A stretch of 64,000 bases of DNA from Ctena decussata. Lineage: Eukaryota > Mollusca > Bivalvia > Lucinida > Lucinidae. The translations under genes were made by a program, and so were the position numbers. Location: positions 88,582,979-88,646,978 of the forward strand of contig OZ022501.1 in assembly GCA_963989385.1 (NCBI GenBank), read 5' to 3'. This document shows positions 547 through 44,428 of this stretch, piece by piece. Each line of letters starts with the position of its first letter. Within the stretch, counting starts at the first letter, position 1. The notes below the pieces were generated by a model, which searched no databases, was not told where the DNA came from, and saw only the letters and a list, made by a program, of their open reading frames with translations.

Positions 547-1190
547 AACTGTGTCCATTTACGTTTGAGCAAATCCATTTGCTCAAACTGGCTCTATGAT
601 TTTGGATAAGACGTTTGTTGGTTCAAAATTTGGATTAATATCTCTGCAGGAAATATACTGTACTTTAGTTAACTGATGAGTAATAATTAGAATTAGATCT
701 AATCCATTTTGTCCAAAATTTGGATAAACCAAATAGCCTGGGATAAGAAAACACCCTGCCTGTGCCTTATACTGTATGAAAATACATGGCCGAAAATTTT
801 ATCCAAAATTTGGATAAGCGACTGTGCAGGCAATACAATGCAGCGTATAAACAGACTGAAATACATTAAATTTTATTTTATCCAAAATTTGGATAAAACC
901 AAACTAGCTGGGAGAAACAAACACCCTGTCTTGCCCCACACATTATGCAAACACACGGCCAAAATTTTTATCCAAAATTTGGATAAGCAGGAAATGCAGT
1001 ACAACGAATACGCAGAAATAATTTTATCCAAAATTTGGATAAAACCAAACTAGCTGGGAAAAGCAAAACCCCTGTCTTAAAATACGCTGTTCCAAAACAC
1101 AGTTGTAAGTTTTATCCAAAATTTGGATAAAACTTTTAGTTAAAATACGCAGTGAATGTCATCGAAGTTTTATCCATAATTCGGATAAAC
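547..1190. repeat. Left terminal inverted repeat with palindromic motif array
   Basis: The outer 16 bp are followed by a perfect 26-bp palindrome (563-588; arms GTTTGAGCAAAT / ATTTGCTCAAAC). Then comes an array of the motif TTATCC-AAAATTT-GGATAA. Cores lie at about 623, 713, 803, 882, 972, 1028, 1116 and (degenerate) 1174, spaced 55-90 bp. The centre has odd length and so has a direction: the clear left copies read CCAAAATTTGG on the plus strand. The DNA between motifs also aligns with the reverse complement of the right end, for example the stretch after 892 with that upstream of 44035. Confidence 0.85.
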
Positions 1191-1199
1191 CACATTATG

Positions 1200-2160
1200 G
1201 TTATTGCAAAAAATACCATGAACAAAACTATGTCGAAATTCCGACGAATAAAATGTATAAGAATCTTATTTGAAAAAAAATAACGTCTTTGTACACTTAA
1301 CTTATTCTAATTTTGTCATTTAATCAATTAGTATAACTGTCAGAAAACAACTGTTTCTAAGTGTTTCAGCAAAATATTTTTATCGAAAAGGTGTTTGATT
1401 TATTTAGTGTTATTATTTCATTTTTATTTATTTATTTTTATTAGTTTTTTGTTTGGTTCGATTTAGATGCTACGCGAAAAGTTGCTCGCAAAAACATGAC
1501 AACTTATGTTTCATCTTTATTATACTGAGTACATTGTAACTGATTAATGACGCAGTTAGATAATAAAGAATAAGTATGTATGCATAAGACATACATAAGA
1601 CATGCATCGGTAGTCAGGTTTTGTTTTCAGTGAACGGAAATGGGATTTAAATCGTAAACGTGCATATCAAATAAATTCTATTTTCATCATTCAAAGTATT
1701 TGTATTTAGATTTCTCTACAAAATGTTTTTTACTGAGTCCTTAGAATACGTTATAAATGCATGCCAAAGTCCATTACATATATTTTTTTAAGTTGAATCA
1801 CATTAAATTAGAATGCAGCACTTTTGATATGGTTTTTTTTTTTCTGTTTTTTTTTTCTTCTTCTTTCGTTGTGTTGTGTGATCTGAAATGACAAAACATA
1901 CGTGTTAATGACTGACAATATGTGTTTATGTTATTTATAAAGGACCTCTGACAGTAATAATGTTAATTTGCCTATAAAATTAGTCAAAATTAAATTTTTG
2001 ATATACCCAAGAATTTTTCTTGAAATTTGTTGCTCTCAACTTCCCCTAACTGGCTATGAATTTAATTTCTGATTTTTTAGTACATGGACTTCAATTCTGG
2101 TTGAAAAAGCCAAATTTTATAATTAAACGTAATCGAAACAGGCAAAGTTTTCTAAAGATA
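1200..2160. other. AT-rich interior, nothing recognised
   Basis: A/T-rich sequence with T- and A-runs (for example about 1830-1860) and no supported gene or repeat. Stop codons are dense in all frames. Confidence 0.5.
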
Positions 2161-2254
2161 CCCCCCCGTGCCTCAGCTAGCCACTTTGCATGTATGAGTG
2201 TACTATCATAATACACATTATATGTGAGTGGCTTGCTGAGGCACGTGGGGGGGC
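2161..2254. repeat. Short hairpin-forming inverted repeat
   Basis: The arm at 2161-2187 (C-run then GTGCCTCAGCTAGCCACT) is complementary to 2228-2254 (AGTGGCTTGCTGAGGCAC then a G-run), with a ~40-nt AT-rich loop. It could be a tiny foldback element. No target duplication is apparent. Confidence 0.7.
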
Positions 2255-2659
2255 GAGATAGTCTACAGCTGAAAAACTGAAAAAGTGGGTAGGGTACTTA
2301 CACCCTTTATATCTACAAATAGGCTAAAGTCCTTATTATTGAAAACATATTGCATACTATCAGTAACAGTAGTGTGTACTTTAGTTTTAGCATAGTTATC
2401 AATTAAAATTTCGATATATTAGAAATCCCAAAAATGGACTTATTTTCAGAGTCTGAAACATTCACGTACCCCCTCTTGATGAAATTGGTTAAAGTTAGTC
2501 TAGATGCCTGATAATTTTTCAAAATCACTGTTAAAATGCCTTTATAGTACACAGGCCTACATATTGATGCCAATTATTTCAACTTTTGCTGCCCGAGGAA
2601 GGTGCAATAATTTGTCGAATAATAGGCAAATATGCATTGATACTGTCAGAGGTCCTTTT

Positions 2660-3250
2660 CTTTATGCACACTCTGAGTCTCGAAGTCCGGTACCGGACTC
2701 TTAGGCGCTCATCCGAGGATTGTCTCCGGGTCCAGCATGTCTCAATACGGGTAATATATGTCTCAAATGGAAAGAAATACACAGTAATCGTTAAATTCTT
2801 ATTAGATTTTGATCTTTTCTACGTATATCGCCATTTGTACAAGCGGTATTACGGTATGACCAAAGGTCATACTAAACTAACCAAAACTGAAATGAATTAC
2901 AAAGCGGGATCACAGTAATTGTTGGTACTGTAAATAATAATATATTGTTCTTATTTTTATTTTAGTTATTTATTTATCATATTTTAATATATTTGTTTAT
3001 TTGTCTGTCTATTTGTTTAACAGGGGCGAGGTATTGTGTTTTCCAATTGGCCGTCCGTGTGTTCGCCCGTCCGTTGCACGTATGTTGCATGAAAGTGAAA
3101 TTGTGAATAAAATATGTTTAACTATTTAAAGTAACAACCGCTAATTAACATACTACCGGACCCCGAGCCATTCTTAACAGGCGAGGCTCCGGGTCAGGTA
3201 CCGGACGCCGATACTGGCAGGCTAGGGATCCGGTACCGGACCCCGAGACA
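2660..3250. repeat. Cluster of GGTACC-centred palindromes
   Basis: The palindrome TCCGGTACCGGA occurs at about 2686 and 3229, with shorter GGTACCGGAC forms at about 3153 and 3216. They are joined by similar GC-rich text such as GGACCCCGAG. The surroundings are AT-rich, so this is a local compositional anomaly. Small frames across it (for example 2586-2918 +) are not similar to any family I know. Confidence 0.5.
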
Positions 3251-5939
3251 CTGCTTTTCTTTAAAATTGATATCGAGACAGTAATGATATATTTAGTCCC
3301 CTGTATCTCAGGAATTCCAGCCTATAGAGACTCACCACCCGCATGTCACAAGAGGAGTAAATTGTTACCGAGACTGAATACGAGTCATCCGGAGATGAAC
3401 AAACGTACAACAAACTGCCATAAACATTGTGGAGTTTGATATGAGCGTCTAACTTTCCGACATTCACGAACTTCCGTGCCCGTGTAAAGTTCGGAGTCTG
3501 TATTTCATGTGGAAGAAGAACATTGCAGGTTTATTCAGTATATAGACAGAACCGCAAAAGACTAAGTCGCATCTTCCTTAGGTGTCATGAACCAGCGGTC
3601 TGCTGTCGCAGGTCGAACACCTTGACAAACAAGCTGCCTCGGGGCAGAAGAGGAGTACACCGCTTCACTGGAAGGTCTTCCGCGACAGCCTGCATCATCG
3701 AGGGTTTAGTAGTCCGACCGCCTTCACAATAAATTCGAAAGAAGTAAGTCTTGCTGTCCACTTTCAATGAATCCAATATTTCATGGCTGAACAGACGTAC
3801 TCTTTATATCTCCAACCTACATTTGATAGAGTTAAAATATTACAAGTCGCTCAGGTTGCTGCACGACTGCTAGAAAACAAGTAAAAAGGTTGCTGCAGGG
3901 TGCAGCAAAAGATAATGCACGGCAAAAGAAATAAGCTTTTTCAGTTTTTGACGATGGAAAATATTTGACCAAAGGTCCTGTTTCTAATTTTCATACTTCA
4001 ATTAGGCATGTTTATTCACAAAAAGGAAAAGAAAATCATAGTGTCAAATGGGGAAATAGACATGGTAATGTGAAGTTTAGGATCAATATCTATCATTGTG
4101 CCAAATGTGAACTATATCTATCTCAGAATTTGTAACAAAATTCTTAGTATATTATGTGACCTTGACGTTCAAGCCATCTAGGAAGAGGGGATGGGAATCA
4201 TCCAAAAAATTATGGTCACTTTTCGTGAACTGTTGTCAGTTTAATGAAAATATGCCTTTCCCTTTAATATGGGGTCTGAATGAATATATATGTTCCCTAT
4301 CATTGCATTTTACTTTGTAAAACCAACCGATGATCGACTAATAGTCGACATAAATTGTTCCTTATCTCATTTTTTTCTGGGCTTATTGCAGGACTATTTC
4401 TTTTTATCAAATTTCTAAACATTTCTATTGCTAACCAAAATTTTACATTGACTTACTCAAATAAACATTATATCCTTTATTTTACATGACTTTAAAAAAT
4501 GAACATATGCACGCGCTGTGCCCAAGATATAGTGGGCTTCTTTTCCTCACTACCCTTATGGCTACCATGCTATTGGCAACGTCAACGTCAAAGCTACTGA
4601 TCTGAATACTGTGGTTAAATGTATGAAGCTCTACAAAGCTACAAAAATGTTAATGTATGGACAGATGAACAAACAGACGAAAAGACAGACGCATGGAGGG
4701 CACATGTTACGAACCATCTTAGAGCGGCGTATAAAAAATAACTTCGAGTTCACAATGGCGGACACATGTGAAATCAGAGCATGATGCTGAGCACGTGCTA
4801 AAAACTTCACACATTTTACAAACAACAAACTCCTTCCAAAAGGTAAAACGCGGTTCAATAAACACAGAGTCAAAAGCAACAACTCTTAAGCTCTTAAAAT
4901 AAGTAGGCGAAATTAAATTATCCTAGTTATATATAGAAAAAAAAATCAATGGCAAAAATGCGCCCATCGCTCATGCAATATCAACGTGCATATCTGTGAC
5001 CTACTGGTTTTAGGGAATGGGATGCAGCTTTATCCCTCTTAGATACTTTCAAGGCTATAAGCATGACAGTGATGAAGTGTTAGTAGCCTCCGGACAAACA
5101 GGCTATAATTACTGATAACATCTTCGGTCCTTGAAAGTAAATCGTCGATTAAAAAGTTATTCCAGTGAACTCAATACTAGAGGAATTACGAACATACTAG
5201 GGAACTATTATGATTTTCTGCTGCCTCAGAATGCGATTCGGCATGATTCCATGACCCTGATCTATTATTTTGGGCACTGAGTTTGAACAAACTTAGATAA
5301 TTATACACTGCTCATGCAGACTGGTCCGGTTTCAGAAGCTACATGACAGGTATTTAGCAACCAAAAGGACTCACCCACTAGACTGTTTGGTGTCAGCTAC
5401 TTTATGAAGCAGTCATTCTTTTCCTAGTAGATCAGTAATGCAATAAGTGCTATGGCTGTAATGAGTGATATTTTATATACAGAGCAGTACATTCGCAACA
5501 AAAAGCGGTTCAGTCCCATAAAGTGGTCATACGGCTACGTGTCCTAGACCCACGATTTAAAACTATCCTGTTGAGGAAAGGGTGTCTGATAGCTTAACAC
5601 AAAGACGGTTGTAAGAAAAATACTTGCAAGATTTGTAAAATAATAATAATAACAAATAAATACATAAATATATGATACTGAATGATACATACTCGCTATT
5701 AGAATATGGCAGTTTCTGCATGAATTTGTTACATTTTGTTACTTTGTGGTACTTATATATTTACAGATGTTCTCATATTTAGAACAATGCTTTACCAATC
5801 ATTTTGAAATTAAGGACAGTTATGCAATGTTTTATCTAGATAACTTAATAAGCGCAGGTGAACAATAACGTCGTTAACATGCTACCAGCCTTTTGATAAG
5901 TTTTGCGAAACAAGCTAGTAAGGGAAAAATTACAAAAAG
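3251..5939. other. Interior of giant element, no supported gene
   Basis: Mostly AT-rich sequence. Open frames here stay under 85 codons, and some overlap on both strands at 3523-3776, as expected by chance. No repeat boundaries were found. Confidence 0.4.
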
Positions 5940-6340
5940 CGATATCACAATATCAGCTATAAGATACCAGATATGACGTGTCAGCTTGACACACAATTGA
6001 TCTGTATGGGTATTGAAAAGCATGGGCATTATCAGAACAACAGGAATCTGCCAGATTTAAGAGTGCATATCACAGAAAATGAGTCTTATGCCCCGAGACA
6101 AAGTTATATGTTGGAAATCTATTTGTTTTATATTAAGGTGAGTGGGTACACTTTCAGGGATTGAGACTTCTCCATTTTCGTCTTTTGTCTCCCTTCTTAA
6201 AAGGAATAATTTGCTCCTGCAAATTAAACTCTTACTTTTAGGAGTAGACTCCATTTTTGAAGAGTTACGTCATTCAGGGAGGCAAACATGATGTAATGGA
6301 AGTTGTTTCTCTTTGTAAAAAGTGCAGAAAAATACGGAGC
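5940..6340 (+). repeat. Left arm of a widely spaced inverted repeat
   Basis: This stretch aligns in reverse complement with 14440-14810. Shared landmarks in order are the block ending ACACACAATTG, GAAAAGCATG, TCTGCCAGATT, AAGGTGAGTGGGTACA, CAGGGATTGA, TTTTGTCTCCCTT, AGACTCCATTTT and GAAGAGTTACG. The arms are ~8.1 kb apart, diverged with small indels, and enclose the GC-richer island. They may be the ends of another old element or two opposite copies of one repeat. Confidence 0.7.
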
Positions 6341-6780
6341 TATACCCATACACTTTAAGCTGATTTTAATAGTTGGAAAAGACAAACAATGAAGATCTTG
6401 ATAAGCCTGCTTATTTCAGGTGCAGTCTGATATGGGTTTACACTGACCGCTAAGGCATCCATCTCCCGGCATTTAGTTTCATACATTGGTAATTTGGGAC
6501 TTTAGGCCTCCCAATTTATATTTTTATACAGTCGGAACTCAAGAGAATGGCAAGAGGTAATTTACATGATATCTCACAACATATATTTATTTGTAAAGTT
6601 TTGATTTTAAGCAAAGAACAAGTCAACTCCAACATTTTAATTCATCTTATAGCTCGGCAATGGGCTTTTTGACTCCCTTCAAGTGATTCATAGGTAGTAA
6701 ATGTGTTTTGCTTTGTTTTTGTGTTTTCTTTCCCCAGCAGCCTTTATTTGTGTTAACAATTTAATGTTCAGCAAGGTCTA

Positions 6781-7069
6781 TGCATGGTAAAGGTAAAAAG
6801 GTAAATGTTTCTCATACATGTAGCCTAATAGCCATAGGGGCAGTGGGGGTTAGAGACTCACTGTATCTTGAGCACAACAGATGAAAGGCGGAGCCCATCA
6901 CTCTCCTTTTGCTGCCTTATCCTTCCCTGATTCAAAAGAGTTACCCATTTATTGCTGGATTGACAGAGAGAGTTTTCCCAGTCGTCGAAACGCGGGCGCG
7001 ATCTCGTGACCTTCCGGCGACTTTCTGCAGCATAACCGAGTTACTATAACCACTCGACCACAGGAGGGT
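6781..7069 (-). repeat. tRNA-Ser-like SINE
   Basis: On the minus strand the sequence from about 7066 downward begins like a tRNA with an A-box (TGGTCGAGTGGTTA) and a degenerate B-box (GAGATCGCGCCC). An AT-richer body follows toward 6781. It is not a functional tRNA: the B-box and stems are degraded. The 3' limit is approximate. Confidence 0.55.
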
Positions 7070-7084
7070 TTCTTTTTTACAGTA

Positions 7085-7185
7085 TCGAGTTTCGAGTAAT
7101 AAAAAGAGAGTTTCGAGTTATAAAAGGCAAGTATCGAGTTATAAAAAGCGAGTTTCGACTTGTAAAAAGGGAGTATCGAGTTCCC
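7085..7185 (+). repeat. ~24-bp tandem repeat (GAGTTTCGAGTTATAAAAAG-type)
   Basis: Five imperfect units alternate between AGTATCGAGTT and GAGTTTCGAGT, each followed by ATAAAAAG. A weaker relative occurs at about 13446-13500. Purpose unknown. Confidence 0.7.
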
Positions 7186-7299
7186 AGCATGCTGGTGTTA
7201 TTTTTTTTTATTTTTTTATTTTTTTTTCTTCAATTTTATGTATCATTAATGAGCTGAACGCACTGCTTTGGGCATATTTATGCATTAAGGTCTACACCG

Positions 7300-7480
7300 C
7301 AGAATTTTCACTTTCATTTTCATCTGATTTGTCAAAGACATCAAAGGAGATAATTTTGCCACTTGAATTCTCCAGGACCATATACCATTACATGTTTTAA
7401 GCAGGTTTTGATTTCTTGCATCTGGAGATGTGCAGCTGGAGATATGGCCAATCAGCTGACAGTTTTTGTGTGATAGACTG
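7300..7480 (+). repeat. Dispersed repeat shared with 38085-38265
   Basis: Both stretches contain, in the same order, TTTTCATCTGATTxG, AGATCAAAG or ACATCAAAGGAGAT, CCA(A)TTGAATTCTC, AGGGCCATA or AGGACCATA, and GCCAATCAG or GACCAATTGG followed by AGTTTTTGTG or AGTATTTGTG. They are diverged direct copies of an unnamed family. Confidence 0.45.
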
Positions 7481-7659
7481 AAAAGTTCCTTTTTTCTCTT
7501 AAATATTACATGTCACTTGTTTAAATATCATATATCATCTATGTGTAACCTGACATGTTTACCTACATAGATGAGCTTTTGTTCTTTTCTGTTCTGTTCC
7601 GCAAAATGAATTATAATTTCGAATGCCGCCATGTAGTCGGATTGCTCTGCTTTTAATTG

Positions 7660-10600
7660 ATTAGGTTTTCTTTCGTTTTGACAATATGAAAAGTACAAGA
7701 AAGAAGAATACAAAAGTTTTATCCGGAATTTCGGCCTTCGTCCGGGCACGTACACATCTGAGTAAGTATATATAATCATGGCAAGAAATCAAAATGGCAG
7801 CGCACACAGTGGGCCTAGACAAAAATTGCTTAGAACACTGCAGGACATTACATACGCAGGTAACCTTGTCTCGACAAGCTTGTTGGGAACAAAATCTCAA
7901 AAAGTAAGGGAAGCTATATTTCAGTATATTAGAGATACCCAGTATGAGGAAAAAATATAGGACCGTGCACAAACCTATCATTTGCGACAGTGTCATGGGT
8001 GAGGGGCATTCGAACGGACAGTTCAGGCAGGCCAATCCTACCCACTATTTCAACTGGAACAATACAGACATAGACAACGGACATACAATACTAGGAGTCA
8101 CCGGGGTGTGTGATTACAGGGGTCTGTTCCATCGGACGTAGCGAAGCGAGGTCCGATGGAGGCTTACAGATCTGGGAATATAGAGCGGATGTTGACAATG
8201 GCCCGAAGAGGCCTCACATGCCATCCGTCTCCTGACGCCCTGAGATGTATTGCTAAGGCCTGCATAAATGGGACGCGGGGACCCTGTATACAGGATGTGT
8301 TTTATGCTGAAATGTGCATGGGTCCATTTGGGTACGATCCCATATTGCATAACGACGCGCGCCAACATGTCGCCACCCTACCTACCTGGCCCTGTCTGGT
8401 GGTCTGGCCTGGCTGTGGGACGGCAGGCGACTGTGAATTACAGGTTTGGGCGAGAGCCAGATCGGATGAAGCGGTTCCCTTGCCACGACTATGGCCTCTC
8501 CCGGCTGCCTAGGCATCGCTCGGGGGTGCGCGAAGTGGGGAAAGTAAAACAAAGTGGACATAATGGCTAATAGTAATAATAATAAACCCTACACGTGTTG
8601 GCGCAGTCCGATCCTACACCTACACCTCGGAGGCAGAGTACTAGAAAAAAGACAGACATACGAACCATTATATTACAGACATTTACAGACTAGACTCGAC
8701 GAGCGGTGGCATAGTGTTCAGCGAACTCAAAATGATGTGCGGAGCCGGTCACATGCTAGGTGGGGCTCCTTCCCAATCACTTGCTGGCCGGCTCTGAGTA
8801 ACATCCAGGATATAAAAGTCTCTAACGCATGTGCCACCGACCGCCGAGCCAATAGCAGACTAGACATAATCGTACACTACAGTAAACAGACGTACAGACG
8901 TACAGAGAGGCGCGCAGTGGAGGTGCATCAAAAGCTCTTGTACATACTCGGACATTACCGAAAACCCCAATCAAATCCAAAGCCCGAAACAGAAAATACA
9001 GCATCCAACATTTTTAGACCACAAAATTTGGTGCGCGTTATTAATATTTATTTAACAACAAAATTCAATATCGCGAGCTCTCACGGCATTACACTCAGGT
9101 GTGGAAGCACGAGATAATTCAACAAAAGCGCAACTGGCCAATTATAGGGTCAATGATCTCCACTGCGAGTTTCTAACATACAACTTACCGTGTGCACCGG
9201 AAGTGTCTGGGCGGTTTATAAAGGTAGGGCTTAATATGAACTCGTCCATCCTTGTAAATGGACTAGTCTGGAAGGCGGGTAGGATAGCATATCACCGAGT
9301 CGGCACGTAAGGAGCGTCTGATCGGGGTCTACGTGTGATAGGAAGAGAACCGCCCGGACGTTTTTGGGGAGCACAACGGGAAAATGTTTAATATGCAGTC
9401 GTATCAAGAAAAAAGGCAAAAAAAAAAACAACAAAAGAATTACTTTCATGGAATTTGTTGAATTTAGGAATTTTAGGAATTTAGTTAGGATCACAGAGCG
9501 AAATTGCAACTCCGAAATTAATAAATCACAGGCACTCGAATGAAGAAAGAAGAAGAAGTATTACAGCATAAAATGAATTTAGGAATTTAGGAATTTAGTT
9601 AATTATATTAGGAATTTAGAGTAATATAGGGAATTAGTAATCTACATCAGACGCTAAACCCTACCAAAATAGAAAGAGACAACAAAAGGCAAACATTAGT
9701 ATGGGTTAAAGTTCCTTCAAAATTTCTTTATAAACCCCTTTTTGTAACGAAGCATAAATAATAGAACAAATAAATACATAAATCGCTTAAATATGGGTTG
9801 GCCCCCTTCCCACTACCTGCAGGGAGGGGGGGGGGTGTGCCAATTATAAATGTGGACGACTCCACTCCGCAGGCGGGGGGGGGGAATGACGCATAGACTA
9901 TTTTTTAATAAAAAAGGCGACAAAAAATGGAAATTCCGTCCTTTAACTCGGAAAATCCTCTCGGGGGGGGGGGGGGGGCGATGGTGGGCTTCCTAAGGGT
10001 TAGTGATTATTCCCCGGGTGTATAAGGAATGGAACCATCCCCCTTAGAATGTGGACGAGACCATTATCCGGGAATGGGGGGGGGGGGTTGGGCTTCGCGC
10101 GGCTAGACCCTGTCGCGACGTGACCGTAAACATAGAAATCCATCATTATATTGGACAAAAGTGTTACACGCGGCGCGCGCGGGAGACGGTGCGCGTGCCC
10201 CCTCAATGAGGAAAGGACAAGGTAGGTAATCCCATCGGTGCCCCGACGGGGGGAGACGCCTCGGCTATTTCGCCATCGAAAAAAGAACAGAGGGGAAGAA
10301 AGATGTGCCATGAAAAGGCTGACGCATGAGGGGCCAAAACATAGGTGAGCAACACATATTATATTTCAATAAGACTAGGGTAAAATAACCTACACACCTA
10401 GGCATCTAAATTGGTATTTTTGCAACAAAATGAGTAACAGAAATTTAAGCAATAACCAATTAAGGACCGTCCTTGTCTCTCTGGGTAATGACACTCCGCC
10501 AGTCTTACCTTAGCATGCCTGTTAAAGTTACGGCGCGGCAGCGAAACAACGATGGATGCAGGACACAACAACGGTGGAGACATCCCAGAAGAAGAGGATG

Positions 10601-11700
10601 GAGACGGACAGACGGACAGATACGCAATCACAAACATAAACACACAAACACGCACGCAAGCCGGCATACACGCAAACACGCATGCACGCAAAAAATAACA
10701 AGTACACGCACATTGTGCTAGCACAAAATAAGAAGGCACACACACACGCAAAACATACTAACAACCAAACTTGATGCGCTGCCACCCCTGAGTGAGGCGT
10801 GTTTTTAATAGCGACAGCCCTATGGTGGCATCATCATACTCACAAGAAAACTTACTAACGGCCCATCAACTTATCAATATTATATACCTAACTAACTGGG
10901 GTTAGTATATAACAGCCACATCTTTATTATATATGCTTGACCATACAGTGCGAGACCCATCCCTATGCAAAAAAAACGTTAAGCCATTCCCAACTAATTT
11001 CTGCTCTTTTTAATATCCTTTAGGATCATAAATGATTAATGAGCAAGGCGCTAGCATCCTAAAGCCGTCACCACGCTAGATGCTCACTTCTGACGGGGGA
11101 GTTCAAAATTCAAACTTAATGTTGCACTCATCACTTGGCAAAATTACTCGACCAAAATAACTGAAGTGCAACAGCCCTAAAGGTACCTGAAAAGGTCCCT
11201 ACCTGTGACTGCGTCAATCCCCACCTAAGGGTAAGGTCAGAATAAGGGACCTCCATCCGGAACCAAATTATTTGGATACGGGGGACGGTTAAAATTAAGG
11301 GCTGTAAGTAATATGGGACCCAAACAGGTCCCATCCTTGAAACCTAAGGAACGCCTGCGTGTTCTCTCGTTGGGACCTGGGTTTCGTCGTGCTCCTTCTC
11401 TGCGGGCGGGGTTGGCCTGTGTTTCCCTGGACTTTCCGCTGGGGTGGCTTTCAAGTGGCGCGCGCCTCCTTCTCCGGACAGAACCTGACTTGGAGCCGTA
11501 GACGGCAAACATCTATGCATAAATACTGGTTAGGCAGCACTGACCGACGAGACATTTACAGACTGAATGACATTGGACGGACACACGGCGCCAAATGAGT
11601 GCAACTATGGTTACGTACCGTTGAGCCACTTGGGTAACGTCGATACGAGAATTGAACAGAACAGAACAGAACAGAAAATGGCAGATCATATCAAAACTAA
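7660..11700. other. GC-richer island with G-runs and a chain of small plus-strand frames
   Basis: Base composition shifts clearly from the AT-rich surroundings. CpG-rich patches (8150-8550, 10080-10290, 11330-11510), G-runs of 10-16 (9825, 9875, 9963-9978, 10077) and a CA-rich tract (10600-10750) lie here. Plus-strand frames follow each other: 7778-7960 (60 aa), 7944-8141 (65 aa), 8156-8512 (118 aa) and 8554-9117 (187 aa, rich in Arg, Asn and Thr). None resembles a protein family I know. The higher GC alone lengthens chance frames. The 8140-8370 part is repeat-derived, which argues against the 118-aa frame being a gene. Possibly a captured foreign segment or decayed cargo of the giant element. 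Confidence 0.35.
8140..8370 (+). repeat. Diverged copy of a repeat also found in both CACTGGCG elements
   Basis: Similar to 24565-24765 (+) and to 58810-59010 (-). Shared blocks are TGATGGAGGC or CGATGGAGGC, TGTTGACAATGGCCCGAAG (best match to the 58.9-kb copy), TGTATTGCTAAGGCC, and GTCCATTTGGGT followed by a TCCCAT block. A short hairpin (ATCGGAC / GTCCGAT) lies just upstream at about 8131-8157. Confidence 0.65.
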
Positions 11701-12003
11701 ACACAAGTACAAGCACTGGATCATACCAAATGAAGTTCTTTTGAAAATACGATACGTTCTGGTGACGTGGGTTGTAAGGATTTCTGAATGACCACTGTCT
11801 GGTTTGATTTACCATGCGTGTGTTTCGTGAACTTTGGCAGTTTTTGTATGTACTTTTTGCGTTTCAACCCCACATTTTCGTCAAGATTTTCAAAACGAAC
11901 GCCTAGTGATGGAACGCACAAGAATAGCCTTAAAAGACTGTAGTTAACATTTTAGTTTAAGTGCCGAAACTGTACTTAACCCATTGGTGCATAACATTGA
12001 AAA

Positions 12004-32574: not shown

Positions 32575-33144
32575 CCAAGTAGACGGCTTAAAGAGAATTC
32601 GTATTCTTGTGGAGTTTCAGATGACACTTGTGTTAATTAGTTACCATTCTAGTGTGAAGAAAATTATTCTAGTAAAGGTGATTATAAGATAATACTAGAA
32701 ATGTGAAAAGAGAATGAAAGAATGCACTAGCAAACATAATTGTACTGGATAGGAACATGTGACCTAAAAGACATAGATCAGACTGCATGCGTTTAGTAAT
32801 TGCTTGCAGGCTGCTTAAAACTCTCTGCCTTTTTACACAGATAAAACTTTTTTTCGTGCTGTTAGATATTTTATATATGAAAAAAAGTTCTAATGTTGTT
32901 AATTTATTGTATTTAAGGTATTGTTGTAACTGAATGCTTTTATGCTTTGTATTGGTTCCCCATTTCTATTGATCTGTCAGGGGTCTTTTTCTGCTAATTA
33001 CCTTGTGATTTAATAGAAAAAGAAATAACAGACCATATATAATTCAATGGACATTAAGATTACAAGGGCCATTTTCTCAGACAGGTTGAAGGGAAAGTTT
33101 TATTACTTTCATTCAGTCAGAAGTTTCATTGCTGATTTATGTCT

Positions 33145-33720
33145 TAAAGTCTCCATAGTCCTACCAATGATAAAAATCGTCAAATACAAATCATTATGAA
33201 ACCTGTACAGCCATCAGAATAAATGAAAATATTCCGGTTGATCTGCTTTTTTGTATCATATAACTGACAAAAGAGAAGAAACAAGGTATTTTGGAAAAAT
33301 GATATTTCTCTCCATAAAAATACGGTTTTCGTCTCTGGTTCCCCGTTAAGCAATGAAATAATGCAACCGCGGCACAATCAATGGGATCCTTGCTTAACAG
33401 TTTTGTACGTTGTATTTTTATCTTCTTATCAGTTGTAAAAACGCGTGTACCTTGTATTTTTATCTCGTGTACCTTGTGTTTTTACCATGAAATATAGCTA
33501 GGGAAATCGAAAGTAGGTCATTTTAGTTGGCAACTAAAATGACCTAGTTATTTTTTCAAATCTATTCTATGGTAAATTCAAGGACGTTTTGATTTTTCAA
33601 GCCGGCCAATCACGATAATAATCAATGATGAAACTGTAGTGAAAAGTTTGCAGCGATACTTCACGACAAAATATTCCATGCTGATAGAGCTATAGGGCCT
33701 TTAGAAACTTTTCTTAATGG
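33145..33720 (+). repeat. Dispersed repeat, copy A (pair with 35417-35890)
   Basis: Collinear with 35417-35890. Shared landmarks are CTTAAAGTCTCCATAGTCCT, CAAATCATT, ATCATATAACTG, GAAATCGAAAGTAG and TCATTTTAGTTG followed by its mirror CAACTAAAATGA. Copy B lies inside the 34086-36871 element. A third, weak relative is at 13640-13800. Confidence 0.7.
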
Positions 33721-35063
33721 CTAAGAGTTTCTGTCTAAGTCATTGAGAGGACCTCTTCACAACATAGTCAGCTCTCAAAATTGCTTCTGATTGGCTGAAA
33801 GGATGGACAATTTAAAACCTGCAGTCTAAAATATACTCTAATTCCCCTAAATTCTGGCACAGACTAGCCAATTGAATAATTGTCTCAATATCTGAACACG
33901 ATTAATATGCAGTAACTATCAAATAATTTGTCAAAAGTCACTGTCGGACTAGCAAGAAGTGCAAACTATAGTCACACTTCTCTTTCTTAATACGTATCAT
34001 CTGGTCTACACTGTTTGCTCCCATTATTCTTTTGATGTGATCAATTCAAACAAACAGAGTATCAGCATGTAAGAAGAGACTCATTCCAGCAGGCACAACG
34101 TTGAATCAACACTGAGTCAACATTGACTCAATGTCATGGTGTACTCCAGCTCCGGACCGAAATTATTTCAGAAATAAAGTTTCTAATTTAGGTCCAGCAC
34201 CTGTAAGTCTTCCTCAGTGTGGGTATTTCAGATGCCGATAAAATCATTCTGGCACATTGTAAACTGTGCATTAATCAATATATTATGTTTTCTTTTTGAT
34301 AAATAACAGCCTTTTTCTTCTTCTGACCTTCCCAAAGTGTCTTATTTAATATTTACTGGCGATTTTTCCTTCGTAGCTGTGAGAATGTTTACGAAGACCG
34401 CCATGTTTGCTTGGGATTTTCCCAGTTACCGGATGACGTCATTGGGTGATAAAAATGGCAAGGATATAAAACACAGTACCTTAGGAGATATGAGTTTCGC
34501 AATTACATACATCTGTGAATATTGTTTGCAATACCTATATATGCATTTATTTTATGCCTGGTGTCCAAATTTCATTTAAGCACGCGTCAGTGTGCTTCTG
34601 TGAAAAGGTTGAGCACTTTTAGATTTAACTAAGTACCGCTATAAAATTAACCATTATCAATGTTCAATTACCATACCATGCGGACACCGAATGTCCGAAC
34701 ACAATTTCACTTTTAATAAATGTTCGCGCACACAAGAAACAAAGGGAATGCTGTTTAATTCAGCTATCAATTTTATAATAGATCTAGTCCATGTCAAAAC
34801 GTAACATTGGTAAAAAAAGTAAACCTAAACACTTCACAACATATGAAACAACTTTTGTGTGTTTGAAGTCGCGTACAGGCCTGTATACTTTCAACTATCA
34901 TAAGAGAGGACGCGATTAAAAGAAATTACGTGCTGTTATGCTTAAACACATTGCAAAAAGTCTTCAGGCAAATGCTGTAATCAGACTGCAAAAGAACGAT
35001 CACAATATTTTATATCCGCGCAACTTACGTAATAAGAATCTTTTAAGATCTCAAGCGTTAACG

Positions 35064-35200
35064 CCGGGCCGGGTAGCGCAATCGGTAGGGCACCTGACTC
35101 GTAAGTCAGAGGTCCTGGGTTCGAATCCCGGTCTGGCCACATACTTTCGTTTCTCCTTCCGCTGAATCAAGAAGGGCAGTTGTCAGTTACTGGCGAAAGT
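35064..35200 (+). repeat. tRNA-derived SINE (best-preserved head)
   Basis: The head resembles a whole tRNA: acceptor-like GGCCGGG / TCTGGCC, A-box TAGCGCAATCGG, a CTGAC / GTCAG anticodon-type stem and B-box GGTTCGAATCCC. The anticodon loop is one base short if this stem is used, so a working tRNA is unlikely. It is followed by CATACTTTCGTTTCTCCTTCC, also seen at about 22597. The body may continue to about 35340. Confidence 0.75.
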
Positions 35201-35416
35201 ATGTGCACTTAGTACTGGTTAACCGCTTAGGAGGTCTAAGCCTGCCCAGGAATAGTGTGGTTAGGTTAACTGACCGTCCCGACATGACCTTAGTTGTTTA
35301 CCGTTAACCGTTAAGCGTTAACAGCGATATAGTCAAACCGCGAGGACGTTTTCTTAAGATGTTGCGATCGGAACCGTGATTATGTACAAATGCGGTACTT
35401 CTTTGAAATTCTTAAA

Positions 35417-35890
35417 GTCTCCATAGTCCTATCAGCGGTAAAAACGCCTAAACTCAAATCATTGTAAAAAGCTGTTCAACCTTCACGTTTAGTAATAAAA
35501 TGTGGGTTGGTGTGCATATATTGAGTCATATAACTGGCAAAAAGTAGAGAAAACAAGTTTTTGAAAAATAACATTTCGCTACACAAAATACAGTTTCCTG
35601 TTCTGGTTTCCCGTCTAGCAATGCTATGTAAACATAGGCGGTATATTGATTGGGAATCCACATTGTACATTGTATTTTTACCATTTTTTGAAATCGAAAG
35701 TAGATCATTTTAGTTGCCAACTAAAATGACCCAAAAAAGTTTTTGAATCCCTTTTTTGAGAAACTGAATGATGTTTTATTAATAAAGCTGGCTAATCCCG
35801 GTCATTTACAATGACGAAACTATAGTGAGACGCTTGCAGCGATACCTCATGATGAAAATTTTCATGCTGATAGAACAATGGGGCTATTAA
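35417..35890 (+). repeat. Dispersed repeat, copy B (pair with 33145-33720)
   Basis: Direct, diverged copy; see copy A. It carries the same self-complementary TCATTTTAGTTG / CAACTAAAATGA block near 35706-35731. Both minus-strand frames here (35476-35670, 35526-35720) lie in the repeat. Confidence 0.7.
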
Positions 35891-36402
35891 AACTATCTGT
35901 ATGATTTTAAAATTAGCTGCGTATAAAAAATATAATATTTCTTGGGAAAATACGCATTTTCTTTGCAAAGGACATGACCTACTACAGAACCAATATTTAA
36001 CTGGTCTTGGCCTGCAGTTAGACGTGTTTTGCTATGGCGCGATTTGTTCTCGTCTGCGTATATTTCACTTAATTTCAACAATTGAAACTATGGAAAATAA
36101 AACTTCGCCGAAGCCACTGACTTTCTTCGAATCCGTTTCAAATACCGATGACGGACGAGGCAATACTACTGTTAGCGAGCTGGTAATAAAAATCTTATAA
36201 GTTCTTGGTTCATTGAAATTAATATAAAAACATTTAATGCGTCGGAACAGTTGTGAAAGTTTGGGTAAGTAGGTATATGTGGCAGGAAATAACCTCGACA
36301 TCATCACATTCTTTTGGCAACGTAAATGTCTTTGCTAGTTTTCTCTTTGATCGATACATCGAACATACTATTGATCGGTAAACTTCCTATGTACTGTTAT
36401 TC

Positions 36403-36740
36403 TACGCAAAAAAAAAAAAAAAAAAAAAAAAAACAACAACAACAAACAAACTAGAAATATAGTCAGGCAGACGTAAGGCGTAACTGGGAGCAGATATCAA
36501 ACAACCGACTCCCCCCCCCCCCCACCCGCCACACACACACAAAGAAAGAAAAAAAGAAAGTAGAAATTAAACAAACAAAACAAAAATCACAGTCAGGGAG
36601 GCGTAAGGCGATCGTGGTGGGGGGGGGGGGGGGTGAAAGACAGAAAATATCAAAGAACCGCCGACTATTAGGATATGACACTTCCTAGGATATATGACAC
36701 TTCCTTACTTTCTTCCCCCCCCCCTACCCCCCTCCCCTCC
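36403..36740. repeat. Homopolymer-rich patch
   Basis: A(~28) at about 36405-36432, C(~16) near 36510, (CA)n near 36530, G(~15) near 36617 and a C/T-rich run near 36715-36740. Two similar GTCAGGSAGRCGTAAGGCG blocks (about 36461 and 36593) suggest a local duplication of ~130 bp. Confidence 0.7.
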
Positions 36741-37089
36741 GATGCAATTTGTAATTAAAAAGCGTTTCTGCAGTGGAAATTGAAACTTGTTTCTGGGCAT
36801 TTTCCGGCCCAGAGCTTGGCTATGTCATGGTGTTGAATTCAGTGGTGATTCAACGTTGTGTGCCCAGTGGGATAATTGCTGCATTTCAGTATTCTGTTAT
36901 CTCACTGTGTTGTGTGTAAATATGTAACAGCATCAAATAATTGTCAGCCGAATTGCTTACTATCAGTAATGATAATGATAAAAATAAAAATAAATAAAAA
37001 TAAATAATACTTCTTAGAAATATTTACACCATACTTTCAAAATTATACAATTTAGCATCTGAAAATTGTTACGAAGGAAATACTCTTTA

Positions 37090-37330
37090 GGCCAAGATAG
37101 ATGTGGTTGGTTGGTTGGTTGTTTTGGGTTTAACGGTCCTTTGAGACAGTATTTGAGTCTAATAGCGCCGTCTCCCATAGAGAGGGAGAAAGAAGGGAGA
37201 AATGATAGACGAGGAAAAATGTACAAACAACCCCCACCCGCACCTACTGCAAGCACAGTAGGCCCTTGTCCCACTAGTATCCAAATCAGTAGAACGGCCC
37301 GGCACTGGAAGTTATACCCAGCATGATCGC
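37090..37330 (+). repeat. Dispersed ~220-bp repeat, copy 1 of 5
   Basis: Starts with (GGTT)n, then TTTAACGGTCCTTTGAGACAG, TATTTGAGTCTA, CGTCTCCCATAGAGAGGGAGAA, CCCACCCGCACCTACTGC, ACAGTAGGCCCTTG, and ends CGGCACTGGAAGTTATACCC. Further copies are at 41095-41315, 42365-42545, 49615-49830 and 53560-53800, all in this orientation. Possibly a SINE, but no tRNA promoter was recognised. Confidence 0.75.
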
Positions 37331-40300
37331 ACCACCCAACCACCCCTAAAATATTTGAACTCGCGGCGATTGTAAATTTTACTCAAATTTAAAAGAATTA
37401 ATTTGCACTAGCGTCGGGATACTGTTCACAAATCAGAAAAATGCTTTTTTTCCTGCCTAATTTTCATAACGATGTTTCCCAGGAGGCTCTGAGGGTTCAT
37501 CTCTTGGCACCGAGTCTGTTCATGTCCTTTATATGACCACATCATATACAAAAGCCAAAACCAATATTTTATCGTAACGATATAAACAATTTGCATTTCG
37601 GGTTGACGATATTTTGTTTTATTAAAACAGATTTTTTTTCAAAACTTTGACAGTTGATTTCGAACAATAACTTATTGTTAAATGAATAATCGATAATCTG
37701 GGTTTTCACTGTTTGCCTTTGTCCCATTTATGGATGGATACAACTTGTGCTATCAATTTTCAAAAATTTACAAACGGACCTGTTCTTTTCTTTCACTCAG
37801 TAGCTCGAAAAGGGTCAACAGATACGAAAGGGTGATCCGATAGACTGATCTGGGTATTTACTGTTTCACTGGCACAATATGTTTCGGCCAGGCTATGGCA
37901 TTTTCTCCAAATTTCAGACAGGCTTTTACTGCTCCATGTTTTCATAATTGATGAGCCTTCAAATTCTGTCGCTATTAACAGTGGCTAAAAACCAATTTTA
38001 ATTATTACTGACATGTTTATAGCTTTATTCTTGAAGGAATCTAGGACTAAGATTAACGACCGAGGCCATTTCAGACCTTTCATATTTATTTTCATCTGAT
38101 TGGCCACAGAGATCAAAGTATACTGACGGCCAATTGAATTCTCGAGGGCCATAAAGCATTATTTGTCTGTAACAAATTTCGACTTCCCTGAGTGGTTTTA
38201 GCATCTAAAGCATTGACCAATTGGCCCACAGTATTTGTGAGAAGCTAAGAACTGTGAATTTATTTTATCATTTCTATTTTTTTATACATACATATATACT
38301 GAAGAACAAAAAAAGAAAGAAAGAGAAACGTTATATACATTAACGCTAAAATTTCATGGGATGCAAAGAATCTAAAGTAAACTTAAAACTGTTTGTCTGT
38401 TTTGTTATCTGAATCTGTTGGTATTTGTAAGGAACTCCTGGCAAGGTTTTAGCCGTGATTATTTTTTTATTTTTATTTTTCGATCGAAAGGTTAGAAGAT
38501 TTACATATATTGTAACCATTATTCTATTTTTTTGTAAACCTAAAAATGCTAGTTACATTTATTGAAATTAGTATTGATATAATATCAAAACGTTTGCAGT
38601 ATGACTTGTAGTGATAAACTCTATGACTTGTAGTGATAAACTCTATAACAATATGTAAATAAATTCATGCATATCCATTTCTTCGTTCATTGCTTCGTAC
38701 ATAATATGCATTGTGATTACATTGATACTTTCAATCGAATGCTGCGTAGCACAAAAAGCTGTGTATCTTAATTAATACGTGAAACATTTCTTACAATTGA
38801 AAAACATAAACATTTCTACAATCGTATATGTACATTATTTCTTTGCGGATGTATACTTTATAGTCGGTAAAGCCACATTTCGGCATGTGATACCTTCGCC
38901 CGATGTCTCCGTAATTGGCAGTTACATTTTTCATGTATACTTTTCTGCCAGATTTTTGTATTCCCACCTCGCTACTATCTGGTTTGTTTTGTACTGGTAG
39001 TTTACCCTTTGCATCCTAACAGAAAACGGATTAACGTTGACGTCATTTGAATCAGTAACGCTTCACAGAAACTCCCTTATTCTAATCTGAAGGAAGCAAA
39101 GAAAAACATTCCATTTAAACCAGCGAAAATAATCAACCGTCAGTAGGTAAGCAAATATGCAATGCTACTCATGTCTAACAAAGCGTATGCGACATCGTCT
39201 TTCATCTTATCTAAGTAACGTCATAAAATACGTCATTTCTAATTGTTACATGATGGCTCTAAAATGATTGTTATTCCAAATTCTAAAAACTATTATCTAT
39301 AAATATTTCAAGCTTTTGAAGCAGACATATTAAAGTTTATGTTAGTGAGTTTTTCCCGAATTCTGGCATGGTTACAAATATCGCCACTTTTAGCGGCGTG
39401 GAGTCGGGCGTGTCAGGGCTGGTCTTGAAAGGGTCTGTTTGTATTCGAGTGTTATGGGTATGATAGGTATTACGTAATAAAAATACTTTGTAAACTAAAT
39501 TCCTAAGGCATATTGCTTATGTTCGGCCTTTCTCTCGCCTGCAACTAGCAGAAACGAACCATAGTTATCACTTTGCTGGTGTCGTCGACGGCGGCATAAA
39601 CTTTGCGTCGCGTTTTCTGGTTTGGCTGCAATTTGTGACAAATTGATTGCGCTCCAGGCGAGACACAGTATTCCCCAGACATCGTCTTCCTTTTAATGTC
39701 CCCAGCTTCGTTTTGGCTCAGCTGCCTATACATCCGTAAATAATATTACTCTCTTGCAAAAATCGTAACTGCTGGGGCATTGATATTTCATTAAAAAACT
39801 AGTGGTCACGTAAATTTTCATGTCTATCGGCCTTGCACTTACAGTGTTAACCTCATTTTCTTGAAAATAATATTTGATTGTTTGTTCCCAAATATCCTAG
39901 AAAAACCACTGATGCTAGGATGAATATATTGTAGATAGACCTTGAAAAAAATGGACCCATGTTTTATTTTTCTTTTCTGTCGGCCTTATACGTCTCCCCG
40001 TGCATCATCATAGTGCAGGTTATTTTTTTCTGGTCCTTTGGGAATATTGAAATCATATTAAGTCATTTTGAAACTAGAGTTCTGCTTCAGCCAGGGCCAG
40101 GCCAGTGTTGCATATTGCATTCCTGGTCTTGAAAGATTCAGTTAAACCGAGTCTGCTATTTTCATTTCTTTGGTGTATTCCTTGCTCCCAAAGGATCTAA
40201 CAATTCAGAACTTAAATATTTACTTTTAAATATGTATCTTATATGAAAAATCTTTGATTGCTGCTTCCCGCAGCCCGAATAATAATTAGTTTGCAAAGGC

Positions 40301-40350
40301 CATAGAAACTGTGAAAATGTCATGTATTGTAAGTTTGACCAGATAACTAT
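37331..40350. other. Interior stretch, no supported gene
   Basis: Contains the second copy of the 7300-7480 repeat at 38085-38265, a 22-24 bp tandem pair (GACTTGTAGTGATAAACTC, about 38602 and 38625) and pieces of a dispersed family near 39960-40210. Small frames at 38779-39000 (+) and 39545-39733 (-) match nothing I know. Confidence 0.4.
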
Positions 40351-40357
40351 GGTACAC

Positions 40358-40680
40358 GGTAAAATATCCGTCGATTTTAACAGAAGAATACCTGGCAACC
40401 AGCTGCCAGACCTTTACCCGGTATTTTACGGGCGCCTGTAAACAGGCGCAGGAATCATCGCGCAGAGCAGAGTATAATAAGACAGGTATTGTTTTGGTCA
40501 TATAGCTCTTCGACACTATCAAAGTATTCTCGAGTACAATCAGTTAACGTAACTCTACTATATCGTGATTTCAAAAAAATGTTCTACAGACAGGTGCCCG
40601 TTAAAATAACGGGAATGGACTGACAGCTGGTTGTCAGGTATTCAACCGTAAAATCTACGGAAATTATTTAACATGTACAG
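40358..40680. repeat. Foldback MITE (~320 bp)
   Basis: Long inverted arms. Left landmarks are AAAATATCCGTCGATTTTA, AATACCTGGCAACCAGCTG and GTATTTTACGGGCGCCTGT. The right arm carries their complements: ACAGGTGCCCGTTAAAATA, CAGCTGGTTGTCAGGTATT and TAAAATCTACGGAAAT. The arms are ~85 bp, and no target duplication is certain. Confidence 0.7.
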
Positions 40681-41094
40681 TTTTCCAAAAAGACGATCCG
40701 ACATGATTCTGTGTCCAAAATAAGTCAATAAAATTCTGTACTTTCTTGGACCCTGAAATTAACGCCCAAATTTTGTTTTTAACATGTCAGGTTTTCGATT
40801 ACTGGGTGTTTATCTGAAGAAAACCCGTAAGTTAAAAAAAAATCAAACTAAAGGATCATTTCAGATATTGGGCCTTTATGGCCGTTCTTTCTATTGCATA
40901 TCTTTACAGTTGATTCACTAAGTGCGAAAAATTCAATCCTTTGTTGCAGTTAATTGTAGTATGCAAAGCTCTGTCACAAACACGCAAGGCATGCAGACTC
41001 TAAGTTTTATTGCTTGCCTGTTTTTTAAATGCATTAATGAGGAAATACAGTGAAACACGCAGCCACTCCCCATAGCATGCCTGCATTATGAGTG

Positions 41095-41315
41095 CTTGGT
41101 TGGTTGGTTGTCTTGGATTTAACGACCCTTTGAGACAGTATTTCAGTCTATATCAGGCTGTCTCCTAAAGAGAAGGAGATAGGCGAGAGAAAAATGTCCA
41201 AACATTCCACATCCGCACCTACAGCAAACACAGTAAGACCATGCACTACTAGTAGGACGCCCCGGCACTGGAAGTTATACCCAGCACCATCGCCCGACCC
41301 GACCATCCTCTAATG
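41095..41315 (+). repeat. Dispersed ~220-bp repeat, copy 2 of 5
   Basis: Same order of blocks as 37090-37330, starting with TTGGTTGGTTGG and ending CCCCGGCACTGGAAGTTATA. Confidence 0.75.
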
Positions 41316-41319
41316 CATC

Positions 41320-42364
41320 ACTTGTGATAGTTAAACTATATAGATAATGCTATGATGCAATAAGCAATTATATAAAGTATATATTAAGGTAATACCATAT
41401 GTCTATACTTTTATTTTATACTTCCTACACAAAACATATATTAAAGAAAGAGTAAGATACTGCAAGAGCTATCCTTCCTATGCATGTGGAATTCCAGACA
41501 TCTTACAATCTTTCATAATGTAAACGCTTAACTTTTAGAATCTTTTTCTATTGTCGTTAAAATTTATTATGCTATGTCTATTTCAGTGACTGGTAATAAT
41601 ATTTATTTTCATTAGTTCTTCACTGATATAAACTGCTTCGAAAGGAAAATTTATTTGTCCTGTAGTATGTCACGATTGTTACATTTTCTGTCATCTCGTA
41701 AATAGTGACAACAAATTATATTTTAGTCCGCCCATTGTCCGTCTAAAGTCTTCGAGAAGCTTAAACATTTGCGAAATTAACCGAACAGCAGTTTGTCTAA
41801 ATAATTTTGATAATGAACACAATGACTACTGAATGTAAGCTCATGAAGGTTATGCTAACTGGCATGCCATCCTTGTAAAACTTAAATACCCTTAACTCTT
41901 AACTTAAATATGTTTATTAAGGTGGTGATTATCACTGATTTGGGGCAAAGACATAAATCTGCATAAAATGCTGAAAATACAACAGATCTTCCCAAACCTT
42001 AGCCCTCTTTATGTTAATTCTCACAATTCAGAAAACCCAAAATGCAGGACTTGTTGAAGTTAAAAAGAATTTATATAAGAAAAGACCAAAGGGTAATTTT
42101 GTGCGCAAAAATCTAAAAAATGACCATCATTATTCAAAATGAAAGTAGGTCTGAACATAAATTAATGCATTATGAAGAGCATCCTAGCAATTATTTTTTC
42201 CATTTTTTTTGCACATTATCAGGCTGTGCAGATAAATAAAGATGTAGCCTGTGTCCAAATATTTGTCTAAAATACACTGTAGAGTCTATTTTCAAGGTTG
42301 AATAATTTCAATAACACACCTGTCTTGGTCATTGTAATGTATATTTATACTGTGAGTATGACAC
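41320..42364. other. Interior stretch, nothing recognised
   Basis: AT-rich, no coding signal and no repeat boundary. Confidence 0.4.
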
Positions 42365-42545
42365 AGGTATTGTTTTGGTTTTAACGGCCCTTTGAGACAG
42401 TATTTCAGTCTATATCGGACCGTCTCCCGAAGAGAGGGAGAAAGACAGAAATGGTAGATGAAAGAAAAAAAATGTCCAAACAACCCCACCCGCACCTACT
42501 GTAAGCACAGTTGGCCTTTGCCCTTCTGTCATCCAAATCAGTAGG
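42365..42545 (+). repeat. Dispersed ~220-bp repeat, copy 3 of 5 (3'-truncated)
   Basis: Begins at GTTTTGGTTTTAACGGCCCTT and matches copy 1 up to CATCCAAATCAGTAG, then stops. Confidence 0.7.
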
Positions 42546-43784
42546 AATGATACAGGTATAACTGCCCTACCTGTATTTAATGATTGCAACCATTATACAT
42601 GTACTATATACATGGTCAGACATTTGAGAAAAAGTTACTGTTTTTACCTGGTCTAGCTTACAAAAATTATTTGAGACAGAGCTGGAACAAATAATTGCTA
42701 GGACGTTCTTTTTAATGCACTAAAGTACCTTCAGAGCTAAGTACAATTTCAACAATGAAGTTTTTAGATTTCTGCGCAGAAAATTACCCTTTGATCTTTC
42801 TATGTAAAACACTTTTTTAAACAGCTTGTCCCTCTGTTTTGTATTCTACACTGTAGAGAACAACAAAAGTAAGAAACCTGCTAATTTTCGGGGAGATATG
42901 TTAATTTTTTATGGTTTTATTCACATTTTTGTATATACCAAAAATCACCACCTTAAAAAAGAAACAGTCCCGCCATTGGCATTGCAACTTGAGACAAGTA
43001 AGTAGAATCAAAAGAAATGTAGTTAATACTGTAAGACACTGAAAATTACAAAGCGCTGTCGGCTATTACTTTAGGATTAAATATTATGCACAGCTGAAAG
43101 GTCTAAAAAATATAAAACACCAAGTATCGTTTTTACAAAATTGTATATTTTGTTATTTCAGATTGCACGACAGAACGACGAAAGGAAACAACAGTGCCAG
43201 GATTCTGAATTAATGCACCCGAACTCCACAAATATGCTATGGAATCTAGGATGCAGCTATGAATTTTAAGGACACATTCTAACAATTTCTGTAGAGAAAT
43301 CTAGGCACAAATACTAAGGATGAGATTTTAAAGAAAAGGAGAGTTTTCTTCCAGCACTGTCAAAAGAGAATGGTTAAATCGAGCTACCGTTATGACTACC
43401 AAAGTATGTCTTATGCAGAAGAAATCATTTTGTTATTACTGCATTTACTGATAATCCTAAGTTATTTACAATGCACTCATTGTATATTCCTATTATAAGT
43501 CACTATATTCATGCCAAACAACTCCTGACAAAGAACTCATACAGAAAAGAAACTGTAGTGTGAGAATAATTTTTATTAGAGTATCCATTCAGTTTGTAAT
43601 TGACTATCAAAACTATAACAAGAATAATTTATCGTACAACAGTCATGTTGGTGTTATGCGTCTGTGCTTTGATACAGTCATGTTGATGACAGTTGTTGGC
43701 AAAAAGCATTGAGGTAGCTAAATTTTGATAAAACTGCTATGATAACCGATGCGAATTTTCAACAAATGATTTGTAAGGTGATTT
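42546..43784. other. Interior stretch, no supported gene
   Basis: AT-rich. A pyrimidine-then-AG acceptor-like site lies near 43160, followed by a short frame ending within ~55 nt. This is too weak to call an exon. Confidence 0.4.
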
Positions 43785-44428
43785 ATCCAAATTTTGGATA
43801 AGACTTACGGCTGTTCATTGGTACAGAGTATTTCAAGGCAGGAATATCATTTCTCCTAGCCAGTTTGATTTTATCCAAATTTTGGATAAAATGAATACAT
43901 TACTGAATAATTGGTGTATTGCTTTCCTTGCACAATAATTAATCCAAATTTTGGATAAAATTTTAGGTTCTGCGTTTGGGTGCAGTGTAGGTCAAGACAA
44001 GGTGTTTCTTTGTCCCGGCTGGTTTGATTTTTATCCAAAATTTGGATAACGGCAAGCTATAGCAATAGTCTAGTGAGAAATCAATATAATCAATGAAAGT
44101 ATAGGTGGTGTCTCTTCTGCAAAGTTTTATCCAAATTTTGGATAAAGCTTTCCCGGCTTTCACAGTTGATTTTCGAACAAGGATTTCATTCACGTAAAGT
44201 GTCAGTGTTTGGACACAATTAACTTTATGCCATATAGCATGTAGTTTTATCCAAATTTTGGATAAAAATTATATGTTAATGATCGCCCATTTTATCAGAA
44301 GTTTTGTTTATCCGAATTTTGGATAACACTTCTATGATAAAATCTGTGTCCGAACATTTTTATTCTTATCCAAAAGCATAGTGCCAGTTTGAGCAAATGG
44401 ATTTGCTCAAACGTAAATGGACACAGTT
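43785..44428. repeat. Right terminal inverted repeat with palindromic motif array
   Basis: Mirror of the left end. Motif cores lie at about 43787, 43875, 43944, 44035, 44131, 44251 and 44312 (degenerate), with a half-site near 44370, then the 26-bp palindrome at 44387-44412. It ends GGACACAGTT at 44428. Most cores read CCAAATTTTGG, the complement of the left form; the one at 44035 reads CCAAAATTTGG. Confidence 0.85.

Follow-up and report, generated by a model that had tools for sequence, protein, structure and literature searches.

TIR-bounded DNA transposons, which carry terminal inverted repeats, and other mobile DNAs differ in size. In the portions of PMC6431247 drawn on here, the Pack-MULEs of one cited study are no longer than the full-length element of 7 kb, representatives of Polinton/Maverick reach up to 40 kb, and Teratorn measures 41-182 kb. 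The families of KolobokP in the Pacific oyster lie at 1.7-4.7 kb in the part of PMC9587614 used here. Here we describe a 43.9-kb segment of the genome of the bivalve Ctena decussata, occupying positions 547-44428 of a 64,000-nucleotide stretch of contig OZ022501.1 (assembly GCA_963989385.1, positions 88,582,979 to 88,646,978, forward strand; hereafter the window). We read this segment, with a probability of roughly 0.6, as a giant, non-coding, non-autonomous TIR DNA transposon that was moved in trans and landed at roughly 28-40 kb. What the sequence shows directly are its ends, its arms, the palindromic iterons within them, the target sequence that is restored when the flanks are joined, and the lack of a recognised transposase domain.

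Results

Matched ends and mirror-oriented arms

In a self-comparison of the window, 547-611 and 44428-44364 are inverted copies of each other at 63 of 65 bases (96.9%), and the outermost 46 bp match perfectly. The terminus begins 5'-AACTGTGTCCATTTACG, and a perfect inner palindrome is present in both TIRs; folding, done on the left TIR, gave a DNA hairpin with z = -3.8 against 200 shuffles. Weaker inverted homology continues past the TIRs for about 640 bp per arm, with the arms homologous in register up to about 1190 and 43780 and, in a more permissive alignment, similar as far as about 1251 and 43654. The arm-to-arm alignment score is 264, compared with 24 on average and 40 at most for 200 shuffles of one arm in 3-base blocks, and it stays at 233 (shuffle maximum 36) once the outer 65 bp are left out. 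The original prediction, made from the letters of the window, had proposed nearly identical inverted ends of ~65 bp followed by ~600 bp of diverged inverted homology, and both proposals hold.

Each arm carries seven 19-bp palindromes, here termed iterons, with the consensus TTATCCAAAATTTGGATAA, lying 162-623 bp from the left end of the element and 102-627 bp from the right. With up to three mismatches allowed, the window gives 28 matches on the two strands (chance expectation 0.08), and every one of them belongs to these 14 iterons, none lying outside 709-1188 and 43783-44326. The likeness of the arms is not only a matter of common iterons, because arms from which the iterons were removed still align with a score of 87 (maximum 30 in 200 shuffles). 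The iterons would be binding sites for a transposase, and the arms look like transposase-recognition arms, composed of an outer TIR and a mirror-oriented array of sites. That TIR, arm and iterons stand in mirror register at both outer ends counts in favour of a single unit.

One insertion into one SINE

The element interrupts a short interspersed nuclear element (SINE), which we take to be tRNA-derived. Once the two flanks are joined, a tRNA-like SINE is whole again and a short duplication is left over. The joined flanks align to the SINE copy at 45817, with 8 mismatches and one gap of 2 bases apart from the junction; the empty target site is deduced from the members of the SINE family that lie in the window. 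What the junction has in excess is most simply a duplication of CCATT whose left copy gained an A, and it may instead be 6 bp long with a single difference. A short duplication at the ends is what an insertion should leave. Two SINE probes gave three matches each in the window (up to three mismatches), all accounted for by a lone left part at 518-542, a lone right part from 44431 and two copies with both parts near 44651 and 45817. No right SINE part matching 469-542 adjoins the left part. The flanks are thus complementary halves of one SINE, as had been predicted; the further claim that the SINE is split exactly at the ends needs amending, in that one SINE is indeed split but the extra bases of CCAATT and CCATT are present.

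The SINE is repeated locally, with three copies in 64 kb including the split one, and a family with a preference for this SINE could land twice. Two small elements of the same family, each in its own SINE copy, might therefore have lost their inner ends and inner SINE halves and so come to resemble one large element. We regard this as very improbable: neither a second copy of the terminus anywhere in the window nor an unpaired SINE half within the interior was found at up to three mismatches, the duplication agrees at both ends save for one base, and two independent precise losses would be required. One insertion, rather than two independent small elements, is therefore indicated by the restored SINE together with the lack of an inner terminus and of an inner SINE half, in agreement with the earlier judgement that two unrelated small elements were unlikely. 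An assembly error that joined unrelated sequence between the ends has a similarly slight chance of being right. The interior does hold tandem arrays, where assemblies can fail, but random misjoining would not yield flanks that together make up a whole SINE, an argument that covers the outer ends and not an error wholly inside the interior.

An interior without a recognised gene for movement

A Pfam scan of all six frames of 547-44428 (18 pieces, X at stops, matches up to E 0.5) detected no transposase or viral domain, as foreseen by the original prediction for transposases, although such a scan is blind to transposases that are unlike Pfam models, heavily degraded or divided among very short exons. 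The reverse-transcriptase (RVT_1) fragment listed in Table 1 is read as a decayed long interspersed nuclear element inside a nested element, E2, and the matches below cut-off were to DUF3915 (3.8e-4) and DUF7455 (0.43 and 0.044). In a control on the retroelements of the flank (six pieces), RNase_H passed its cut-off, while RVT_1 in three pieces (6.4e-5 to 1.3e-3) and GIY-YIG (0.012) fell short of theirs; as these control matches are mostly below cut-off, the scan detects decayed retroelements, but weakly. Since no recognised gene lies inside, movement would depend on a transposase from elsewhere. The interior has a GC content of 38.3% and the right flank 37.6%, with CpG observed/expected ratios of 0.81 inside and 0.77 in the right flank. 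At the Rfam gathering score the window has a single match, tRNA-like, at 35067.

Size at landing

Two nested elements bear on how large the segment was when it entered the SINE: N1, which has inverted-repeat arms, and E2, which lies within N1 and has a second, longer copy on the opposite strand of the right flank, from 56860 to beyond 64000. The first 25 bases of the E2 ends are identical, and its target-site duplication is probably TA. The two TIRs of the 43.9-kb element imply a divergence of 1.6% per lineage (95% confidence interval 0.2-5.8%). The SINE copies at 44651 and 45817 differ at 8 of 91 positions (4.7% per lineage), which sets a rough ceiling on age because the SINE predates the insertion. 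Counting gaps, identity between the two E2 copies is 83.4%, equivalent to a divergence of 9.4% per lineage, and their lengths are no more than 1.64 times (interior) and 2.12 times (flank) that of the core they share. Extrapolating from this growth, a crude calibration, puts the landing size at roughly 28-40 kb. Two SINE copies in the interior are more diverged from each other (20 of 131 sites) than the TIRs are (2 of 65; Fisher p = 0.014).

A smaller start is conceivable, in which an element of a few kb with the same TIRs entered the SINE and then swelled to 43.9 kb through a few large nested insertions, some of them bringing arrays or repeats that had already diverged. Nested insertions are visible (the 9.1-kb N1 with E2 inside it, and array-bearing and inverted-repeat pieces), divergence of the N1 arms does not significantly exceed that of the TIR, the interior comes near the right flank in GC and CpG ratio, no element-specific gene is recognised, and by arithmetic about five 8-kb insertions would be enough. 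We hold such growth in place, the main rival reading, to be less likely than a landing at 28-40 kb, though well ahead of the two alternatives above. It needs an 8.8-fold increase from 5 kb or a 29-fold increase from 1.5 kb; the landing dates to at most about 5-6% per lineage (TIR, SINE), yet over 9.4% the growth of E2 was no more than 1.6-2.1 times; and nested insertions are delimited for only part of the interior.

Several points weigh against a landing at 28-40 kb and against the transposon reading as a whole. The N1 arms differ at 45 of 470 positions, not significantly different from the TIR (p = 0.10), and N1 and E2 may be recent arrivals, given that these arms are not significantly more diverged and that the E2 ends are identical over 25 bases. 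The growth calibration uses a single pair of E2 copies, in whose comparison gaps were scored as differences, and nesting may come in bursts. With only 65 bp of TIR, the interval on age is wide; the SINE copies may differ because of subfamilies and not because of age; and of the interior SINEs compared, one lies inside E2 and may have arrived with it. The element is known from one copy only, and we know of no transposase that would move it. The efficiency of DNA transposition drops above 6 kb of cargo, according to the part of PMC6431247 used here, where cargo of 100-200 kb is also recorded as having been moved in artificial constructs; very large cargo is possible in principle by cut-and-paste. 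Of the prediction of an unusually large transposon, what stands is that a unit with matched ends was inserted once into a single SINE; the whole 43.9 kb may not have moved at its present size, in view of the nested insertions and the flank-like composition.

Other features of the interior and right flank

Each copy of E2 carries a decayed reverse-transcriptase element. The flank copy is interrupted by a 2.5-kb Penelope-like element (61369-63844) with a 604-aa frame, in which RVT_1 and GIY-YIG matches fall below cut-off, and the interior copy provides its empty site, with a 5-bp overlap. Its protein has 1258 relatives; among the 120 listed, the best has 68% identity, and those that carry an organism name, at 47-59% identity, are from Mytilus edulis, Pinctada imbricata, Thiodiazotropha bins and the Solemya velum gill symbiont, the bins of the last two presumably carrying clam DNA; such relatives point to a probable bivalve host. 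Conversely, the interior E2 copy contains a 1.4-kb insertion (22958-24381) with a 197-bp x 4 array that is absent from the flank copy, where the empty site has a 13-bp overlap.

A GC-rich stretch at 8114-9117 holds a 189-aa open reading frame (8548-9114). Its one relative within a threshold of E 1e-3, a protein without a Pfam domain from a 7.1-kb ENA contig, is 95% identical to it; none of the frame's eight pattern matches in a viral contig collection was confirmed as a relative. Positions 8116-8343 recur at 24532 and 59047 with 70-73% identity. A mitochondrial origin of the GC-rich stretch at 8-12 kb was dropped, as 0 of 13 code-5 frames of at least 100 aa looked mitochondrial by eye. Inverted-repeat pairs at 1939-2658, 15476-15640, 31838-32075 and 42060-42820 look, from their sequence, like nested miniature inverted-repeat transposable elements (MITEs). 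The direct repeat 33142-33709 / 35410-35894 (74-76% identity, about 2.2 kb apart) is either an old duplication or a pair of diverged long terminal repeats.

Table 1. Coordinates of the element, its target and nested features in the window
Feature	Position	Strand	Description
Left part of target SINE	469..542	+	tRNA-like sequence GGGACTCGAACCC; 94.6% to 45817 copy, 92% to 44651 copy
Left target-site duplication	541..546	+	CCAATT, one extra A relative to CCATT
Left arm	547..1251	+	inverted homology with right arm
Left TIR	547..611	+	AACTGTGTCC..., holds perfect palindromic hairpin GTTTGAGCAAAT/ATTTGCTCAAAC; 63/65 identical to right end
Left-arm iterons, n=7	709..1188	+	starts 709, 799, 878, 968, 1024, 1112, 1170
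Interior	1252..43652	.	about 42.4 kb; only Pfam match above cut-off is a reverse-transcriptase fragment
Nested inverted-repeat element N1	20587..29712	.	9.1 kb; arms 90.4% over 470 bp; satellite-like arrays
Nested element E2	21098..26880	+	TIR CACTGGCGCTCACGTATTTGTACAC; between 163-bp units, inside N1
RVT_1 fragment	21831..22088	+	E 3.6e-8, 33.8 bits, cut-off 29.6; inside E2
Satellite-like array in N1	26881..28559		163-bp unit
tRNA-like SINE head	35067..35139	+	interior; relative at 22513-22640
Right arm	43652..44428	-	inverted homology with left arm
Right-arm iterons, n=7	43783..44326	-	starts 43783, 43871, 43940, 44031, 44127, 44247, 44308
Right TIR	44364..44428	-	inverted match to left TIR
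Right target-site duplication	44429..44433	+	CCATT
Right part of target SINE	44431..44490	+	right limit approximate

Discussion

On the transposon reading, the 65-bp TIR with its internal hairpin and the seven iterons of each arm would be the cis-acting sites at which a transposase produced from another locus binds the ends, brings them together and cuts them. Reinsertion into the SINE by a 5-bp staggered cut, followed by fill-in, would leave CCATT on both sides. The interior would be passenger DNA, either host or repeat sequence trapped between the ends or material accumulated over many rounds of residence, and no interior gene would be needed for movement. After landing at roughly 28-40 kb the element would have gained further nested insertions. 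The function of the iterons, movement in trans, the cut-and-paste mode and the landing size are what we infer from the arrangement of the locus.

Movement of the entire segment in one piece would mean that about 40 kb of non-coding host DNA can be carried by a natural DNA transposon of an animal, well over the sizes given for gene-capturing cut-and-paste elements in the part of PMC6431247 used here. The multi-site iteron arms would then offer a testable reason for the movement of large cargo. If the segment instead grew in place, it is a small transposon buried by nested repeats, an ordinary outcome. A broader proposal, which we offer tentatively and consider less likely than not, is that this locus represents a class of giant gene-free animal transposons in which mirror arrays of palindromic transposase sites would make it possible for a transposase acting in trans to shift over 40 kb of arbitrary host DNA in one piece.

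Exact-pattern searches with the end sequences gave no match in viral contigs (three patterns) or prokaryotic genome contigs (two), zeros that say little since the collections are viral and prokaryotic and may lack the window's own genome. Four short terminal and iteron strings had no match in the literature text searched, which lends weak support to the prediction that the element is undescribed.

By its TIRs (63 of 65 bp) and its target-site duplication (CCATT, with one indel), 547-44428 belongs among the TIR-bounded DNA transposons. Helitrons have no TIR and no target-site duplication, and are ruled out by the presence of both here. A Polinton/Maverick, to which the locus is similar as a giant DNA element with inverted ends, was rejected, as no polymerase (PolB), integrase, packaging ATPase or capsid domain appeared in the six-frame Pfam scan; the target-site duplication of that group is 6 bp in the portion of PMC10045372 used here, whereas CCAATT/CCATT is read as 5 bp, with 6 possible. 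Teratorn is likewise a giant TIR-bounded element of an animal, but no herpesvirus or piggyBac domain was found and the duplication is CCATT, not the TTAA that is the target-site rule of piggyBac in the part of PMC9587614 used here.

Kolobok is a weak lead as to superfamily. The AA...TT termini of 547-44428 fit the 5'-RR...YY-3' of Kolobok and KolobokP in bivalves, a two-base rule easily satisfied by chance, and the duplications of KolobokP solo repeats (3-4 or 4-5 bp in the same portion of PMC9587614) are near the 5 bp seen here. Unlike KolobokP, the element has no long terminal direct repeats, its ends being inverted in self-comparison, and unlike Kolobok it has no TTAA duplication; nor is there a Pfam match to set beside their DDD/E transposase, which a non-autonomous derivative would lack too. 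With MITE-like and Pack-type elements it has in common TIRs, a short duplication, the lack of a transposase and presumed movement in trans, and it differs from them in its length of about 44 kb and in the mirror arrays of seven palindromic iterons at each end.

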